A stretch of 64,000 nt of DNA, from the NCBI GenBank assembly GCA_036362785.1, contig CP143625.1:559401-623400 (forward strand), written 5' to 3'. The DNA comes from a beta proteobacterium MWH-UniP1. GTDB lineage: Bacteria > Pseudomonadota > Gammaproteobacteria > Burkholderiales > Burkholderiaceae_A. The position numbers and the translations under genes were made by a program. The notes under the pieces were generated by a model that worked only from the letters and a program-made list of their open reading frames with translations, was not told the DNA's origin and searched no databases. Shown one piece after another: positions 26,239 to 32,614 of this stretch (its first letter is position 1; each line of letters begins with the position of its first letter).

Positions 26239-27201
26239 TTAATTGCTAAGCCTAACAATTTTGTTTCCGTTTTCTCTGTATAGAAAAATGTGATGTTCGG
26301 GGTATTCGGTCTGGATATCGCCAACAAAGAATCGCTCTCTTGCAGCCTTGAAGTGAGCTTGATTTAAAAGCTGCCATGGATGAGGTTTGCTGTTTATTTC
26401 AAGCCCATAATCCATCGAAATACCGCAATAATTTCCAAGTAGGTATCGATGGTGCAGGCGATCAGTCTGGTCATTGACAGCTATAAAACGAAATGTTCCG
26501 CTATAGCTGGAGGCCAGCAGAAATTTCTCTAATTCCTTGGTTTCTTCGCTCCAGCGTGAACTAAAAGGTCTTGGCTCATATTGGCTATCTAGCGATGAAC
26601 GAATCACCGTAAAGTCATTTCCCCCTTGAGCCGCCCAATGCTTAAATACTGTTTGAAAAAGGTCACGCTCCTTAGCTGTTGCTTGAAGCCATTGATGGCG
26701 ATTTACCAAAACTATTTTCTTATGTTTTTTTAGAAATGGATTCAGAAGTGGAATAAAGGAATCGGGAGTTGTTAGCTGAGATACATCTAAAAATCCGACT
26801 TTATTCTCTGATTCTTCAATGTATTCATCGATCTCGCTTGATGAGTACAAAGGGTCGTGCTCCACAGGCTCATCGCATATAAGCACATTGAAATGTGTCT
26901 TTGAGGTTTCAGCCTTGATAACTTCGACCCACGCCTTTTTCCGATCAAACGGCACATCTTTTGGCAATATTGCGCCGGATAAATCGAGCTGCTGCAAGAC
27001 GCCTTTTAACCTTTTTTTTAAGATTTCATCTTCAATTTTGTTGATCTGCTGCAGAGCGAAATTATGCCAGTCTCTTGGAAGTCCAGCGATGATGCGTCCG
27101 TTCATCAGACCAAATTTATATTTTAACGTAAGGCAAACAAGCTGATCTCTCGTGAGCGCGGGATCAATTGCTACCGTATCAAAAAGTTGCGTTTGGGGCA
27201 T
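26239..27201 (-). CDS. Unrecognised protein partnered with the DUF3696 ATPase
   Basis: 320 residues, not recognised as a whole. The start ATG at 27201 lies 2 nt after the ATPase stop, so the two are translationally coupled; a TTG at 27213 is an alternative. The N-terminal third is helical and charged. The middle has alternating beta/alpha segments (HFNVLICDEP, KKIVLVNRHQW). The C-terminal part contains DRLHHRYLLGNYCGISMDYGLEI (in outline), reminiscent of an H-x-R / DR-Y-L-L core found in phospholipase-D-like and similar nuclease-like effector domains. That resemblance is weak. It is a candidate effector whose activity is gated by the ATPase. Confidence 0.6.
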   Translation of the reverse strand: MPQTQLFDTVAIDPALTRDQLVCLTLKYKFGLMNGRIIAGLPRDWHNFALQQINKIEDEILKKRLKGVLQQLDLSGAILPKDVPFDRKKAWVEVIKAETSKTHFNVLICDEPVEHDPLYSSSEIDEYIEESENKVGFLDVSQLTTPDSFIPLLNPFLKKHKKIVLVNRHQWLQATAKERDLFQTVFKHWAAQGGNDFTVIRSSLDSQYEPRPFSSRWSEETKELEKFLLASSYSGTFRFIAVNDQTDRLHHRYLLGNYCGISMDYGLEINSKPHPWQLLNQAHFKAARERFFVGDIQTEYPEHHIFLYRENGNKIVRLSN

Positions 27202-27203
27202 CG

Positions 27204-28982
27204 TTAATTCCAAAGATCTTCGTCTCGTTCATCAAAAAAGCCCTCGGGCCAGCCGTCGATAAACTCTCCGGCCGAATTGACACGAACTAGAAATACTTGA
27301 CTTCTGTCGCCCATCGGTCTTATATAAATCAGCGACAACTCATCGGGATAGAGGGTTAATGAGGTATGCAGTAACTCGTCTTTGTGGGAGTTTCGAATTC
27401 GCCTCAGCAGTCGGAGAATCAAGTGCTCGCTATGTGTTTCGATTATGATATTCCCAGAGTATTTAGATTTTCGGTCATTAGCTACACAATTGACGATACA
27501 GTCGGCTACCCTGGATTGCAGCTTTGGATGCAGATGGACTTCCGGTTGACGAATCACATAGTTGTTGGAGATTCCCAGAAACGTCAGAATTGGGAGAATT
27601 TGTGAAAAGCCTGTACCGACCTCTGAGAATCTTAGCTCTCGACCACTTAAATCAACGAGAAATATTCGGGCGAGGAATTCAACGTTTTTCTTGAGTTGGA
27701 CTATATCCAACTGCTGATGTTCCTCGTTAGATACTTTGTTTTCCCGAATCTCAAACACATCCTTTATGTCAATCAAGCCGGAGTTTTTTAGCGTTGTATC
27801 TGTAAAAGGAATACAGGTTTTAAGATCGACTTTGATTTGATACCCAGAATCAAGAAAGGCTTTTCCACCGAGCCATTCGTTGATTTGTGTGAGCACACGA
27901 GATTTCGGGCGACTGGGGTCGCTCAATCGAGCAACATTTTGAAAAATAGCTTCTCGTGCAAGCACGTGTTTTCCTGAAGTGCCAGTTTGCTGATTGGGAT
28001 CTGCAAACTGGTGCGTGGCTAGTTTTTCTGAGTCAGGGTGTGGGTTCAATTTGCAAAAGAACCAGTCAGAGTTGAGATCGCGCACTGGGTCTGAGTTGAA
28101 AGTCCATGCATATCGCTGTATGAGTGTCGCAAGAGGGTAGTGAAATATTGCCGTAATGAGCGCAAATGCCTCATCTGCGAGTCTTGGGTCGTTCGACTCG
28201 TAAGGGGTGAGCTGAAACATGAAATTCGCAACAGACCCGAAAGATGGCCAAGCCGGGCCAATTTCTGGAGCTTGACTCGACCAATCGCTGTAGTAAAAGT
28301 TGTATTGGAAATCTGCGTGTTCATCGAATAGATTTTTGAGTTCTACCGACTCAGGCATAAACAAAGAGAGTGCAAAGGATTTGACATTGATATGCTGATG
28401 TCCATCCTCCGCCGTCCAGGTTGCAGCGAGATTTCCATCTAGATACACACTTAGAGAAAGTGTCGAATAGCCGATGTTTTCAAATACTGCAGTGAAAACA
28501 GTGTCCGAGATGTGCGCTTGAAATTCTTTGCTTCGAAAAAAGTTGCCAAACACAGGGAATTCGCCTTTGACAGCAAGGTCTGCCAATAGGCTTTTCTCGC
28601 CGGAGGCGGTATGTATCCTTCGATCTAGTCGCTCTTCGGCAAAGCTCAGGTATTCCCAAAGATTCCCAAGGTCCGTTGGGTATTTGGCGGAGATGCCGTA
28701 AGCGGGAGCGATTTCCTGTGATCTAGCGGAATCTTTTATGGTCGCGAGTTCGGTAGAACCGCGTGACTGGGCGCGAGTCAAGAAAGACAATATTTCAAAA
28801 GCTTCGTAAATGCTGCTCTTGCCCGCGGAGTTAGGTCCTAAGATTGTTGTAATTTTGGACAGCGGAATTAGATTCCAATCCGCAAGAGATCGATGGTTGC
28901 CAATCAAGATGGCCACATCAAAAAAGGGCTCTAGGTAGGCTTTTTGTATTGCTAAATTTTTTGTAGGAAACGTCAGTAGCAT
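27204..28982 (-). CDS. AAA family ATPase with DUF3696-type C-terminus (OLD/ABC-like)
   Basis: 592 residues. The N-terminal ABC-like ATPase half has Walker A ILGPNSAGKSS (GPNSAGKS at 49-56). A long insertion of about 350 residues (helices, perhaps coiled coil or substrate domain) separates it from FSEVGTGFSQILPI (signature-like), VIRQPEVHLHPKLQ (Walker B, Gln-Pro-Glu) and IIIETHSEHLILRLLRRI (switch His). It ends NSAGEFIDGWPEGFFDERDEDL, the pattern of DUF3696. Such SMC/OLD-like ATPases often form defence modules with an effector gene. It is the first gene of a coupled pair on AT-rich island DNA. Partner identity is open. Confidence 0.82.
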   Translation of the reverse strand: MLLTFPTKNLAIQKAYLEPFFDVAILIGNHRSLADWNLIPLSKITTILGPNSAGKSSIYEAFEILSFLTRAQSRGSTELATIKDSARSQEIAPAYGISAKYPTDLGNLWEYLSFAEERLDRRIHTASGEKSLLADLAVKGEFPVFGNFFRSKEFQAHISDTVFTAVFENIGYSTLSLSVYLDGNLAATWTAEDGHQHINVKSFALSLFMPESVELKNLFDEHADFQYNFYYSDWSSQAPEIGPAWPSFGSVANFMFQLTPYESNDPRLADEAFALITAIFHYPLATLIQRYAWTFNSDPVRDLNSDWFFCKLNPHPDSEKLATHQFADPNQQTGTSGKHVLAREAIFQNVARLSDPSRPKSRVLTQINEWLGGKAFLDSGYQIKVDLKTCIPFTDTTLKNSGLIDIKDVFEIRENKVSNEEHQQLDIVQLKKNVEFLARIFLVDLSGRELRFSEVGTGFSQILPILTFLGISNNYVIRQPEVHLHPKLQSRVADCIVNCVANDRKSKYSGNIIIETHSEHLILRLLRRIRNSHKDELLHTSLTLYPDELSLIYIRPMGDRSQVFLVRVNSAGEFIDGWPEGFFDERDEDLWN

Positions 28983-29344: not shown

Positions 29345-30607
29345 ATGCCGCTTCCGCTAACTCGAGAGCAGCTCTATGACCTAGTCTGGGCCAAGCCAAT
29401 GACCAAGGTCTCCGAGGAGCTGGGCATTTCAGACGTCATGCTTGCCAAAATTTGCAGACAAAAAGATGTGCCCAGGCCACCACGCGGCTATTGGGCCAGC
29501 CTGGGTTCGAGCAAGAAACGACGCAAGTATGTGAAACCCCCTTTGCCCGAGCTGCTCTCCGGTGTGTCGGACTTCAATCGGCTCGTCATCACGGAGTATG
29601 AGCAGCGGGAGGCTGCGAGAACGGATCGATTTGACTGGGAAAACTTAGCCGAGCCCATTCCAGATCCGCCTAAGCCGCCTGAGGAGTCGGTGGAGGAGTT
29701 TGTCGCAAGGCTAGCTGAGAAGCTTCCCGAGATCCCTGAGCCGGGCAGCTACAAGAAACTGCACCCGATTGCTCAAAAGATCTATGACCAGGACTGCCAA
29801 AAAGCCCGTTTAAGGGGCTATTCGATATTCGATCGACCCAGGTATCAAGACGGGGACGGAAAGAGACTTTTAGAGGCGTTTAATGGGGTGTTATGGGCCT
29901 TCCACAGGTTGGGATTTAAGCCTCGCGTTACTGGTAGGGTGCATTTTAAGACGCATATCACCTTTGCCGAGCGCCACAAAAGTTTTGCTCTGTTTTTATC
30001 AGAGGCCAGTGAGCGACGCAGCGGAAAAAACGCAGAGACTGTTGCAGCGCCACAAATCTGCTTTGCCTGGGAATCCGAAGAATGGGATGCTAGACGAGGG
30101 GGGAATTACCAGTGTTATCGCCATTTCACCTCAGGCGACATCCGAACGCTAGTGCTTGGGCTGCTGGCAAAAAAAGAAAGCGACTATCGAGACTGGCTGA
30201 CAAGCGGTTACGAGTGGGACGTCTCCCGCCGCCAAGAGCTCATCGAAAAGAATGAAGAAAAGCGCCAGCGGGCTTTAAGGCGTGAGCGGGCCCGTATTGC
30301 TACGCTCCTAAATCGACGATTGGAGTTACTCGCAGATGCCGGTAAGCGAATCGAGGACTCTGATCGTATCCGTGAGCTCGTGACAGTGTTTGACGCAAAA
30401 GCGAGAGCCGCAGGTAAAGAGATAGTAGGATTTAACAAGTGGTCACGCTGGGCGCTACAGCGCGCAGATGACATTGACCCTCGACATATGAGCATTAAGC
30501 ACTTTGAGAAATGGATTGCGGGTTTTGCCCTAGGCGTTCGCCAAAACACGCCGAGGAAAAAGACCGCTAGCCAAGAGCGACAAATAGGCAAACACTCCAC
30601 TTGCTAG
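29345..30607 (+). CDS. Large HTH protein of unknown function
   Basis: 420 residues. The N-terminus has a helix-turn-helix-like module of a type I recognise from many unnamed island proteins: REQLYDLVWAKPMTKVSEEL, GISDVMLAKICRQKDVP and PRPPRGYW (about 6-50). A proline-rich linker (about 95-115) follows, then an uncharacterised mixed alpha/beta domain (about 135-290). A strongly charged helix (about 300-340, many Arg/Glu) could be a coiled coil. The start is fixed by AAGGAGG 6 nt upstream. Function unknown; DNA binding is a reasonable inference from the N-terminus and the high content of basic residues. Confidence 0.75.
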   Translation: MPLPLTREQLYDLVWAKPMTKVSEELGISDVMLAKICRQKDVPRPPRGYWASLGSSKKRRKYVKPPLPELLSGVSDFNRLVITEYEQREAARTDRFDWENLAEPIPDPPKPPEESVEEFVARLAEKLPEIPEPGSYKKLHPIAQKIYDQDCQKARLRGYSIFDRPRYQDGDGKRLLEAFNGVLWAFHRLGFKPRVTGRVHFKTHITFAERHKSFALFLSEASERRSGKNAETVAAPQICFAWESEEWDARRGGNYQCYRHFTSGDIRTLVLGLLAKKESDYRDWLTSGYEWDVSRRQELIEKNEEKRQRALRRERARIATLLNRRLELLADAGKRIEDSDRIRELVTVFDAKARAAGKEIVGFNKWSRWALQRADDIDPRHMSIKHFEKWIAGFALGVRQNTPRKKTASQERQIGKHSTC

Positions 30608-30622
30608 GCTTAAAATTGACAG

Positions 30623-30979
30623 ATGAGAAAAACATCTGATTTTCGCTGGATTGCAGCGAGAGAATTTATGAAAGCGCAAGAACAAGAGTTCACTCTTGGA
30701 AAACTTGATCGCCTAAGCCGTGAGTTTCTAGATTGGATAGTCTTGCGCTGCCAATCAAATGAGCCGTTACACATCCAAGAGATCGTCATGGGCAGTGCAA
30801 TTGCCTCACCGGCCACAGTCCATAAGTGCGTTGATACGCTTTACCATGAAAAGCTGATTGACCTCACCATCGACAAGTCTGATCACAGGCGACGCATTGT
30901 GCGCCCAACAGCCTTAGCCCTAAGAGAGCTCACAGCGCTGGATGCGGCATTTCAAGGGTGGCTCAAGAAGCAGGACTAA
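30623..30979 (+). CDS. MarR-like winged-helix protein
   Basis: 118 residues resembling a small MarR-type winged helix: LHIQEIVMGSAIASPATVHKCVDTLYHEKLIDLTIDKSDHRRRIV in outline covers the recognition helix and the DxxDxRRR-like wing (about 50-95). It follows the HTH gene after 15 nt on the same strand. An ATG at 30668 (after GAGAGA) is an alternative start giving a 103-residue protein. It is probably a local regulator; target unknown. Confidence 0.65.
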   Translation: MRKTSDFRWIAAREFMKAQEQEFTLGKLDRLSREFLDWIVLRCQSNEPLHIQEIVMGSAIASPATVHKCVDTLYHEKLIDLTIDKSDHRRRIVRPTALALRELTALDAAFQGWLKKQD

Positions 30980-31001: not shown

Positions 31002-31391
31002 CTAATCCGAGTAGACGACGATTTCGATTGAAAACTTCTCGCCGATAGGCCGCAGCTCCGCATCATCTTCGGTGCAAACCGCAACGCTTTTTATCGAGCG
31101 GGGACTAAATCGCTTCATTAACTCAATCGACAAGATTGCTTGTCCTAGAAGGCTCATGCTAAGCCGAGTTGCTTTGGTCTGAATGACAACAATATCTTTG
31201 TCGGTAATTTTTTGACTTTTATCTTTCGATATTTCCGCTGGGCCGCCAAGGATGATGACTCCGTCAATCAAGCGTTGGGCATGATGTGGGCCTTTTGCGA
31301 CTGCCTGAAACTCTTCAATGAGTGTGCCGCCTACTGACTCCCAATATCGTCGGGTTAAGGGTGTTTCACGCTTACTCAACAATCTCTCCAC
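31002..31391 (-). CDS. Unknown protein with PD-(D/E)xK-like residues
   Basis: 129 residues, no family recognised. It shows a possible restriction-endonuclease-like core: Glu26/Glu27 in GTLIEEF, Asp43 in LIDGVIILGG, then DIVVIQTKATRLSM with Gln71 and Lys73 (QxK). Spacing and beta-strand pattern fit a PD-(D/E)xK fold, as in Holliday-resolvase-like or Mrr-like nucleases. It starts at GTG, overlapping the zinc-protein gene by 20 nt; an overlapping TTG is possible. It is the third gene of the Mrr operon. The nuclease reading is inference only. Confidence 0.55.
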   Translation of the reverse strand: MERLLSKRETPLTRRYWESVGGTLIEEFQAVAKGPHHAQRLIDGVIILGGPAEISKDKSQKITDKDIVVIQTKATRLSMSLLGQAILSIELMKRFSPRSIKSVAVCTEDDAELRPIGEKFSIEIVVYSD

Positions 31392-31698
31392 GAAAACCCA
31401 CGTGAAGGCATAAACAGGGGGGTGGTGGCGGGTTTACTGTAAATCCGAACGAATTACCGTAAGGAATGTTTTCGATGCTCTGGTGCACGCCAATCATTTC
31501 TCCGTCTCCAAGATTATTTTTTACCGCATATTCCTTTAAATCTGGAGCTATGTATTCAAAACCATCATCGGTAGCGATGTAGAGTGTGTGCGCGCAAGGG
31601 TTGGTGTCGGGCGCCTTGTCTTCATCGACGACCTCTTCTCCGCAAAAAGGGCAGTGTAGTCGAGATGCGTATTGCTGGGACAGGTCGATAAGTTTCAT
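31372..31698 (-). CDS. Small zinc-ribbon-like hypothetical protein
   Basis: 108 residues. Cys16 and Cys19 in HCPFCGEEVV resemble half of a zinc ribbon; further cysteines and histidines are in NPCAHTLYI and CLCLHVGF. The ATG at 31698 lies 1 nt after the Mrr-like stop (TGAAATG), so translation is coupled; longer starts inside the Mrr gene are less likely. Function unknown. Its fixed place between two nuclease-like genes suggests a subunit or immunity role. Confidence 0.6.
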   Translation of the reverse strand: MKLIDLSQQYASRLHCPFCGEEVVDEDKAPDTNPCAHTLYIATDDGFEYIAPDLKEYAVKNNLGDGEMIGVHQSIENIPYGNSFGFTVNPPPPPCLCLHVGFRGEIVE

Positions 31699-31699
31699 T

Positions 31700-32614
31700 T
31701 CAAATCGCTGGATCGTAAAAGAATACTGGGCGTAGCCGGAGCCGCTCTTTATCTTCATCGGAAAGTTTTGGGTAAAACTCTTGCCAAAGGGCAATGAATC
31801 GATCGAGGTCAACTAACTCGACATGGACATGTGAGTTTCGGGCCTGGATTTTGGCATCGCTTGTGAATCCACCTGTGGAGACAAACATCCCTACATCCCC
31901 GTCTTTGCTAAGCAGTCCGATTAACTCTCGTATCTCTTGGACGCTTGCGCTACTGTCACGATGCTTGATCTGCACTTTGATGCGGGGGCTAACTGCGCCT
32001 AGGGGATCTTGATAGGCGATGATATCCACCCCACCATCTTTGCCTCTTGGGGCAATAAACGGCGTGTAGTATTTCATCCCGCGGAGGAGCGCTGCAACGA
32101 GGTCCTGGAACTCATAAGCATTAATACTATCGATACGCTGTCGTATGCCATCAGCAGCACGCTGTTCAACCTCTTGTAAGGTCGCCTCTTGCCCTTGCTC
32201 TCCTTGACTAACATCGACTTCTTCCAAGTCTTCATCAGATGACTTCTCGCGCTTTTCTCTTGGGTTCTCTTCGCGCCACTCTTTGTACTTTGCGAGTGCC
32301 GATTGCAGCATTCCAATCTCGCCGAGATCAAGCGCTGCAACACCTTCTTTTGTCAGGTACCAGACGCCTTTTCGTTTAAGCATGTACCCTGCTTTAATCA
32401 TGTCAATACTGTAAAAATGCAGGATGCTGATCCAACGTGTATAGCCAGACTTTTCGTACGTGGAGCGAGCCCAATCATCAAGATCAAGCGTTTGTTCGAT
32501 AGCGCTGATAACTTCGCGACCAGGAAGCTCGCCGCCTCGGTCTCTTAAAATTTGCATCGCAGCGAAAATTACCTTTGCACCTAGTGCTTTAGATCTAGAA
32601 AGTGGTTTACTCAA
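31700..32614 (-). CDS. mrr: Mrr-type restriction endonuclease
   Basis: 304 residues from a TTG start at 32614, which has GCGAGG 8 nt upstream; E. coli Mrr is also 304 residues. An in-frame ATG at 32686 is the alternative. The N-terminal winged-helix Mrr domain (about 10-100) is followed by an acidic linker (about 115-155) and a C-terminal nuclease domain. There YEFQDLVAALL, GKDGGVDIIAY (Asp197) and VQIKHR (Gln215-x-Lys217) give the Mrr-type PD-(D/E)xK active site. The family cleaves modified (methylated) DNA. No methyltransferase is nearby, consistent with a type IV enzyme. Confidence 0.85.
   Translation of the reverse strand: MSKPLSRSKALGAKVIFAAMQILRDRGGELPGREVISAIEQTLDLDDWARSTYEKSGYTRWISILHFYSIDMIKAGYMLKRKGVWYLTKEGVAALDLGEIGMLQSALAKYKEWREENPREKREKSSDEDLEEVDVSQGEQGQEATLQEVEQRAADGIRQRIDSINAYEFQDLVAALLRGMKYYTPFIAPRGKDGGVDIIAYQDPLGAVSPRIKVQIKHRDSSASVQEIRELIGLLSKDGDVGMFVSTGGFTSDAKIQARNSHVHVELVDLDRFIALWQEFYPKLSDEDKERLRLRPVFFYDPAI

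Follow-up and report, generated by a model that had tools for sequence, protein, structure and literature searches.

A small PD-QxK nuclease-like protein encoded behind Mrr belongs to an uncatalogued, widely scattered family and may serve as an accessory to larger nucleases

Introduction

Passages of a review name PD-QxK as the catalytic site of the restriction endonucleases Mrr and MspJI (PMC12707154), and the same name is applied to the Mrr catalytic domain in a passage of a second paper (PMC11037411). The protein considered here, 125 residues long, is encoded in an operon with Mrr in the beta proteobacterium MWH-UniP1, within a window of 64,000 nucleotides, the whole stretch of DNA that was analysed and to which all coordinates refer unless a locus is named. 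It shares with the Mrr/MspJI catalytic domain (Mrr_cat) the order D...Q-x-K and the restriction context, its neighbour in the window being itself a Mrr_cat member, whereas it matches Mrr_cat neither by HMM search nor by hhalign and carries neither a winged helix nor an SRA reading domain. The nearest solved fold is the C-terminal nuclease domain of EndoMS/NucS, and genes of the NucS_C type are the commonest direct neighbours of its relatives. However, identity to EndoMS/NucS is only 14%, the N-terminal domain is missing, there is no PDB sequence match, and the small protein has Q-x-K where the NucS-like neighbours have E-x-K. XisH, the excision controlling factor of the fdxN element, has a similar length (chains of 128–129 aa) and fold (Z 7.9–8.0), but identity is 9–10%, neither Pfam nor PDB gives a sequence match, and a Z near 8 can reflect a shared arrangement alone. 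The nuclease domains of Can2/Card1 are also alike in fold (Z 7–8.8), but the small protein, at 125 residues, has no CARF sensor domain. The best-supported statement is that the protein represents an uncatalogued family of single-domain, PD-QxK nuclease-like proteins, a single-gene traveller that sometimes sits directly behind a larger nuclease.

The operon in the window

The genes for Mrr, a CPFCG zinc-ribbon-like protein and the small protein follow each other in this order on the minus strand, and all three reading frames were confirmed in the window. A first-pass annotation had placed three coupled genes here, which holds, and had given the last product 129 residues, a length that a homology-based start reduces to 125. 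The Mrr gene (31700–32614, minus strand) begins with TTG at 32614, in agreement with the start position in relatives. Its product combines a winged-helix Mrr_N domain (Pfam, E 7.1e-11) with a Mrr_cat domain (E 5.6e-23), matches the PADLOC model PDC-S02 at 1.7e-41, and on alignment with seven relatives displays the PD-QxK motifs D-x-G-x-D and Q-x-K (D193/D197...Q215-x-K217). Judged by its sequence, it is an ordinary Mrr.

One base separates the Mrr stop from the ATG of the second gene (31372–31698, minus strand), which encodes 108 aa with the motifs C16-P-F-C19 and C35-x-H37. No confident match to this protein was obtained in Pfam, NCBIfam or PADLOC, and no library, PHROGs included, gives it a name. 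Relatives at 26–33% identity occur in the same genome, in Acinetobacter and in Azoarcus, and C16, C19, C35 and H37 are kept in all four aligned rows (C16-P-x-C19, C35-x-H37), a pattern that would fit a zinc ribbon.

The gene of the small protein (31002–31379, minus strand) starts with a TTG that overlaps the zinc-gene stop by 8 bases and is preceded at a distance of 4 bases by GGAGAG (31384–31389, minus strand), a putative Shine-Dalgarno-like element. Since the relatives begin with MSK(x)ET in the alignment, TTG 31379 is probably the true start, and the frame from GTG 31391, with 129 aa, is probably four residues too long. The G+C content of the three genes is 0.47–0.49, compared with 0.537 for the window.

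A family absent from four libraries

Searches with the small protein yielded no usable match in Pfam, NCBIfam or PADLOC and chance-level matches only in PHROGs (E 0.044); the family is uncatalogued in these four libraries. Nor was a description of it found in literature on Mrr, NucS, integron defence, Q-x-K and PADLOC, although absence from the literature is not claimed. Relatives were collected by scanning 84,980 species genomes with two peptide patterns derived from an intentionally loose alignment composed of the window protein and two invented probes. This returned 108 candidate stretches, within which tblastn confirmed 44 relatives at 36–61% identity, a biased, pattern-recruited sample that spans at least 11 phyla. 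The family alignment (A5) holds 41 rows, the window protein and 40 of the 44 relatives. Left out were L073, which is broken, L069 and L077, for which no open family frame was found, and L076, which like L036, L039, L040, L075 and L078 is partial or starts late.

Within this alignment Q71 and K73 are invariant in all 41 rows, as are E27 and D43 in the 39 rows that have no gap at these positions. Such conservation is not mere ascertainment, because neither pattern includes E27 or D43, and half of the aligned relatives (20 of 40) entered the set solely through the pattern that does not contain Q-x-K. On the aligned sequences, the conservation of Glu26/27, Asp43, Gln71 and Lys73 is judged to be far above chance.

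Close to home the family is sparse. Searches with the single sequence revealed nothing real in plasmids, phages, 26 genomes of the family, 369 of the class and 398 of the phylum, nor did the protein's own 8-mers against viral contigs and genome contigs; among the 26 family genomes only the window's own (1/26) carries the gene. The family profile recovered the window's own copy alone from 299 phylum genomes and nothing from viral contigs, in which two looser alignments also found none, and a family protein from L045 gave nothing in plasmids and phages. Three kinds of apparent hit were discarded: a weak match in L005 that we read as a response-regulator-type frame, one in L009 that we read as ClpB-type, and three phage portal-type proteins in viral contigs that matched the codon pattern Q-x-K...GQA by chance. 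One family member, in L060 (3986–4576), carries an extra C-terminal stretch, and a GYF_2 match (1.8e-7) occurs in 1 of the 41 members, by our reading the same protein.

Predicted fold and active site

Is the small protein likely to be an enzyme? AlphaFold2 modelled it from the 41-row alignment with a pLDDT of 94.1 and a pTM of 0.87, and with a pLDDT of 39 when no alignment was supplied. By DSSP the alignment-based model consists of H9-20, E23-31, E40-47, E66-72, H79-95 and E99-106, that is a core H-E-E-E-H-E corresponding to the alpha-beta-beta-beta-alpha-beta core of PD-(D/E)xK nucleases. The conserved residues fall where this superfamily has them: the first strand contributes E27, the second D43, and Q71 and K73, the (D/E/Q)-x-K element, close the third main strand or adjoin it. 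VIA-align ranked the EndoMS/NucS nuclease domain (2vld) first with Z 11.5 over 101 residues and an rmsd of 2.6, indicating that the model has the fold of this domain, followed by AF1548 (Z 9.7), Can2 (8.8) and XisH (8.0). Foldseek also ranked EndoMS first, with a weak best E value of 0.019. At the level of sequence the window protein had no Mrr_cat match in Pfam up to E 1, Mrr_cat is not among the six Pfam families matched by any of the 41 members at E 0.1, hhalign of the family against Mrr and NucS-like profiles was insignificant, and neither NucS_C (Pfam) nor the solved EndoMS chain (PDB) was matched.

The first-pass annotation had read Glu, Asp43 and Gln71-x-Lys73 as a PD-(D/E)xK core and proposed a fold prediction as the check; the confident model with its H-E-E-E-H-E core, the EndoMS/NucS similarity and the conserved E, D and Q-x-K support this reading and the prediction of a PD-(D/E)xK-type nuclease. 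The glutamine in Q-x-K is no ground for calling it dead, since PD-QxK is given as catalytic in the cited passages on Mrr and MspJI (PMC12707154; PMC11037411). Alternatively, it could be imagined that the protein has kept the nuclease fold and acts as a regulator, an antidote or a DNA-end binder for the neighbouring nuclease. It consists of a single domain without a DNA-reading domain, and XisH, which bears the title of an excision controlling factor, is found at Z 8.0 (VIA), both of which would suit such a role; yet E27, D43, Q71 and K73 are invariant wherever present across at least 11 phyla, which would be unexpected for an inactive scaffold. We therefore regard a non-enzymatic role as improbable, and the protein is treated below as a predicted nuclease.

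Search for the triplet at other loci

The first-pass annotation had further suggested that Mrr is usually single and that a conserved three-gene version would be a new type IV-like or two-nuclease system. Mrr loci were examined in other genomes (11 loci: L010, L011, L026–L034), together with L008 from the window's own genome. None of the 11 carries either small gene, in agreement with Mrr being usually single; over all 12 the small nuclease is absent and the zinc protein is present in L008 only. Full-length Mrr relatives with 34–38% identity over the alignment, one on an Ideonella plasmid and three in genomes of the class, are likewise without both small genes. As a separate observation, one of the Mrr loci (L027, 908–8459) has DNA methyltransferase-like and Mrr genes interleaved in what we read as a nuo (complex I) operon.

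Viewed from the small nuclease the result is the same: the zinc gene is present in none of the 44 loci (480 kb), and a Mrr-type gene in one, L047, where it lies on the opposite strand about 0.9 kb away. The neighbourhood survey thus turned up no second triplet (0/44 small-nuclease loci, 0/11 other-genome Mrr loci, counts limited by sampling), and the idea of a conserved three-gene Mrr system was not upheld. Could Mrr, the zinc protein and a second nuclease still form a true system that is too rare for this sample? The 1-nt gap and 8-nt overlap would favor it, as would the fact that each of the genome's two zinc-protein copies shares a locus with a Mrr_cat gene, the second copy (L008) lying in a restriction locus, type I by our reading of the ORFs, with the Mrr_cat gene about 4 kb away. 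However, besides the zero counts at both sets of loci, the zinc-protein relatives of Acinetobacter and Azoarcus stand alone among unrelated neighbours, and the small nuclease is confined to a single one of the 26 family genomes, so that such a system appears very improbable. A profile of the zinc protein found this genome's two copies and no others in 274 class genomes, and no relatives were found in viral contigs.

Larger nucleases next to the small nuclease

The two-nuclease idea, unsupported as a conserved Mrr triplet, survives in another form, as the small nuclease recurs immediately downstream of larger nucleases, mostly of the NucS_C type. A same-strand gene lies within 130 nt upstream in 18 of the 44 loci, the neighbour genes here and below being mechanical ORFs, many on short contigs. 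In four of the 44 (L058, L060, L064, L069) it is a NucS_C-type gene at gaps of 26–89 nt, scoring above the Pfam cut-off of 24 bits in L060, L064 and L069 and just below it, with 22.5 bits, in L058. Moreover, in L037 the upstream gene overlaps the small-nuclease gene by 8 nt and encodes a DUF4357 protein (36 bits, cut-off 38.4), GIY-YIG-like by our reading. Another upstream neighbour is endonuclease/exonuclease/phosphatase-like, again by our reading, and the remainder of the 18 are unrelated or unassigned. On the downstream side, a protein of L075 matches DUF5655 below the cut-off (21.7 bits against 24), and a PDDEXK_4 protein is encoded further off in L055. A NucS-like profile run over the 44 loci retrieved its four source proteins and one weak match, likewise beside a small nuclease, a recurrence that is only suggestive, as the profile was built from these same four proteins.

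How much of this neighbourhood is specific? PADLOC and restriction-type matches occur both near the small nuclease and in control genes at least 3.5 kb away (143 near proteins; 143 distant ones drawn from 177), which indicates that many of the loci are defence islands. Since PADLOC models match the distant genes too, part of the nuclease neighbourhood may reflect islands instead of pairs. NucS_C does not appear among the Pfam matches listed for the distant genes (25 of 164 families), which falls short of proving its absence there.

Spread and mobility

A tree of 38 rows, from which rows under 105 residues were left out, carries 11 phylum labels and groups copies from different phyla with strong support, for example the Verrucomicrobiota copy L035 and the Cyanobacteriota copy L037 as sisters (support 98/96), although bins can be contaminated and such grouping alone is no proof of transfer. 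Many relatives are solitary among unrelated genes. In L065 (437–1963) the gene stands alone between attC sites at 896–1007 and 1412–1523 and forms a one-gene integron cassette; the repeats of the series start with GCCTAAC and end with GTTAGG, and on folding three of four have z values of about -5 and the fourth -1.0. Sites resembling attC were also seen next to the gene in L042 and L056; an Rfam scan of 12 loci returned no attC family. In L057 (7138–9203) the gene is flanked by two direct copies of an apparent uvrB 3' end, and an intact uvrB is adjacent to these, as would result if units were inserted at the end of uvrB. No copies were found in plasmid, phage and viral collections. For an empty-site comparison within the genus, G015 was the sole relative with the flanking genes, and their order there differs from that in the window. 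Mobile and often solitary, with one clear integron cassette, the small-nuclease gene may pass between phyla as a mobile unit of a single gene. In an Endozoicomonas genome (L061, 3175–6153) a relative was noted downstream of genes that we read as phage-type.

These observations bear on a competing explanation, in which the small nuclease needs no partner and works on its own, for example as a one-gene restriction or repair nuclease that cassettes and islands carry, and came to stand behind Mrr by chance, as genes were packed into a defence island. The many relatives between unrelated genes, the cassette in L065, the attC-like sites in L042 and L056, the position between uvrB ends in L057 and the failure of the triplet to reappear are all consistent with it. 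It does not readily account for the 8-base overlaps seen with the zinc gene in the window and, in L037, with the DUF4357 gene, nor for the four loci in which a NucS_C-type gene immediately precedes the small nuclease; three of these four relatives were placed in the tree and fall on separate branches. A purely solitary existence is a serious possibility but would not be our first choice.

An accessory nuclease?

The reading that we prefer, at a probability of roughly 45%, is that of a minimal, single-domain PD-QxK nuclease acting as an accessory, either solo or co-translated with a larger nuclease of restriction type whose gene lies just upstream. Most relatives lack an adjacent nuclease, which counts against it, while the operon in the window suggests that here the small nuclease acts with Mrr as its partner. 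In such an arrangement the winged helix of Mrr would recognise DNA that is modified or damaged, Mrr_cat would introduce a nick, and the small nuclease translated along with Mrr, if catalytically active and physically partnered with Mrr, would extend or complete the cut, presumably in defence. The zinc protein would be a second passenger that may dock to or restrain Mrr or the small nuclease.

A bolder extension of the accessory idea, which we consider doubtful, is that the 125-residue PD-QxK protein is a cassette-borne plug-in that works across phyla, repeatedly joining unrelated larger nucleases upstream of it (Mrr, NucS_C-type, DUF4357-type) and converting each into a two-nuclease restriction system, the zinc protein serving as an adaptor where present. 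The family itself adds to the known repertoire a small, widely scattered nuclease-like protein that is absent from four libraries, occurs in at least 11 phyla and sometimes resides in an integron cassette. If it truly pairs with different restriction-type enzymes, it would represent a transferable add-on by which defences based on one enzyme are upgraded, and also a clean small enzyme for the study of the PD-QxK active site.

Other genes near the operon

Further genes of the window deserve mention. At 26239–28982 on the minus strand a gene for a 592-aa AAA_15 ATPase (PADLOC NsnB 5e-30, PDC-M55A 1.3e-25) overlaps by 10 bases that of a 324-aa protein without family match (G+C 0.44), and the pair is a candidate two-gene defence system. 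Between this pair and the Mrr operon lie two plus-strand genes, one (29345–30607) for a protein of 420 aa that matches RWP-RK weakly and the other (30623–30979) for one of 118 aa with weak MarR/RPA_C-type matches only.
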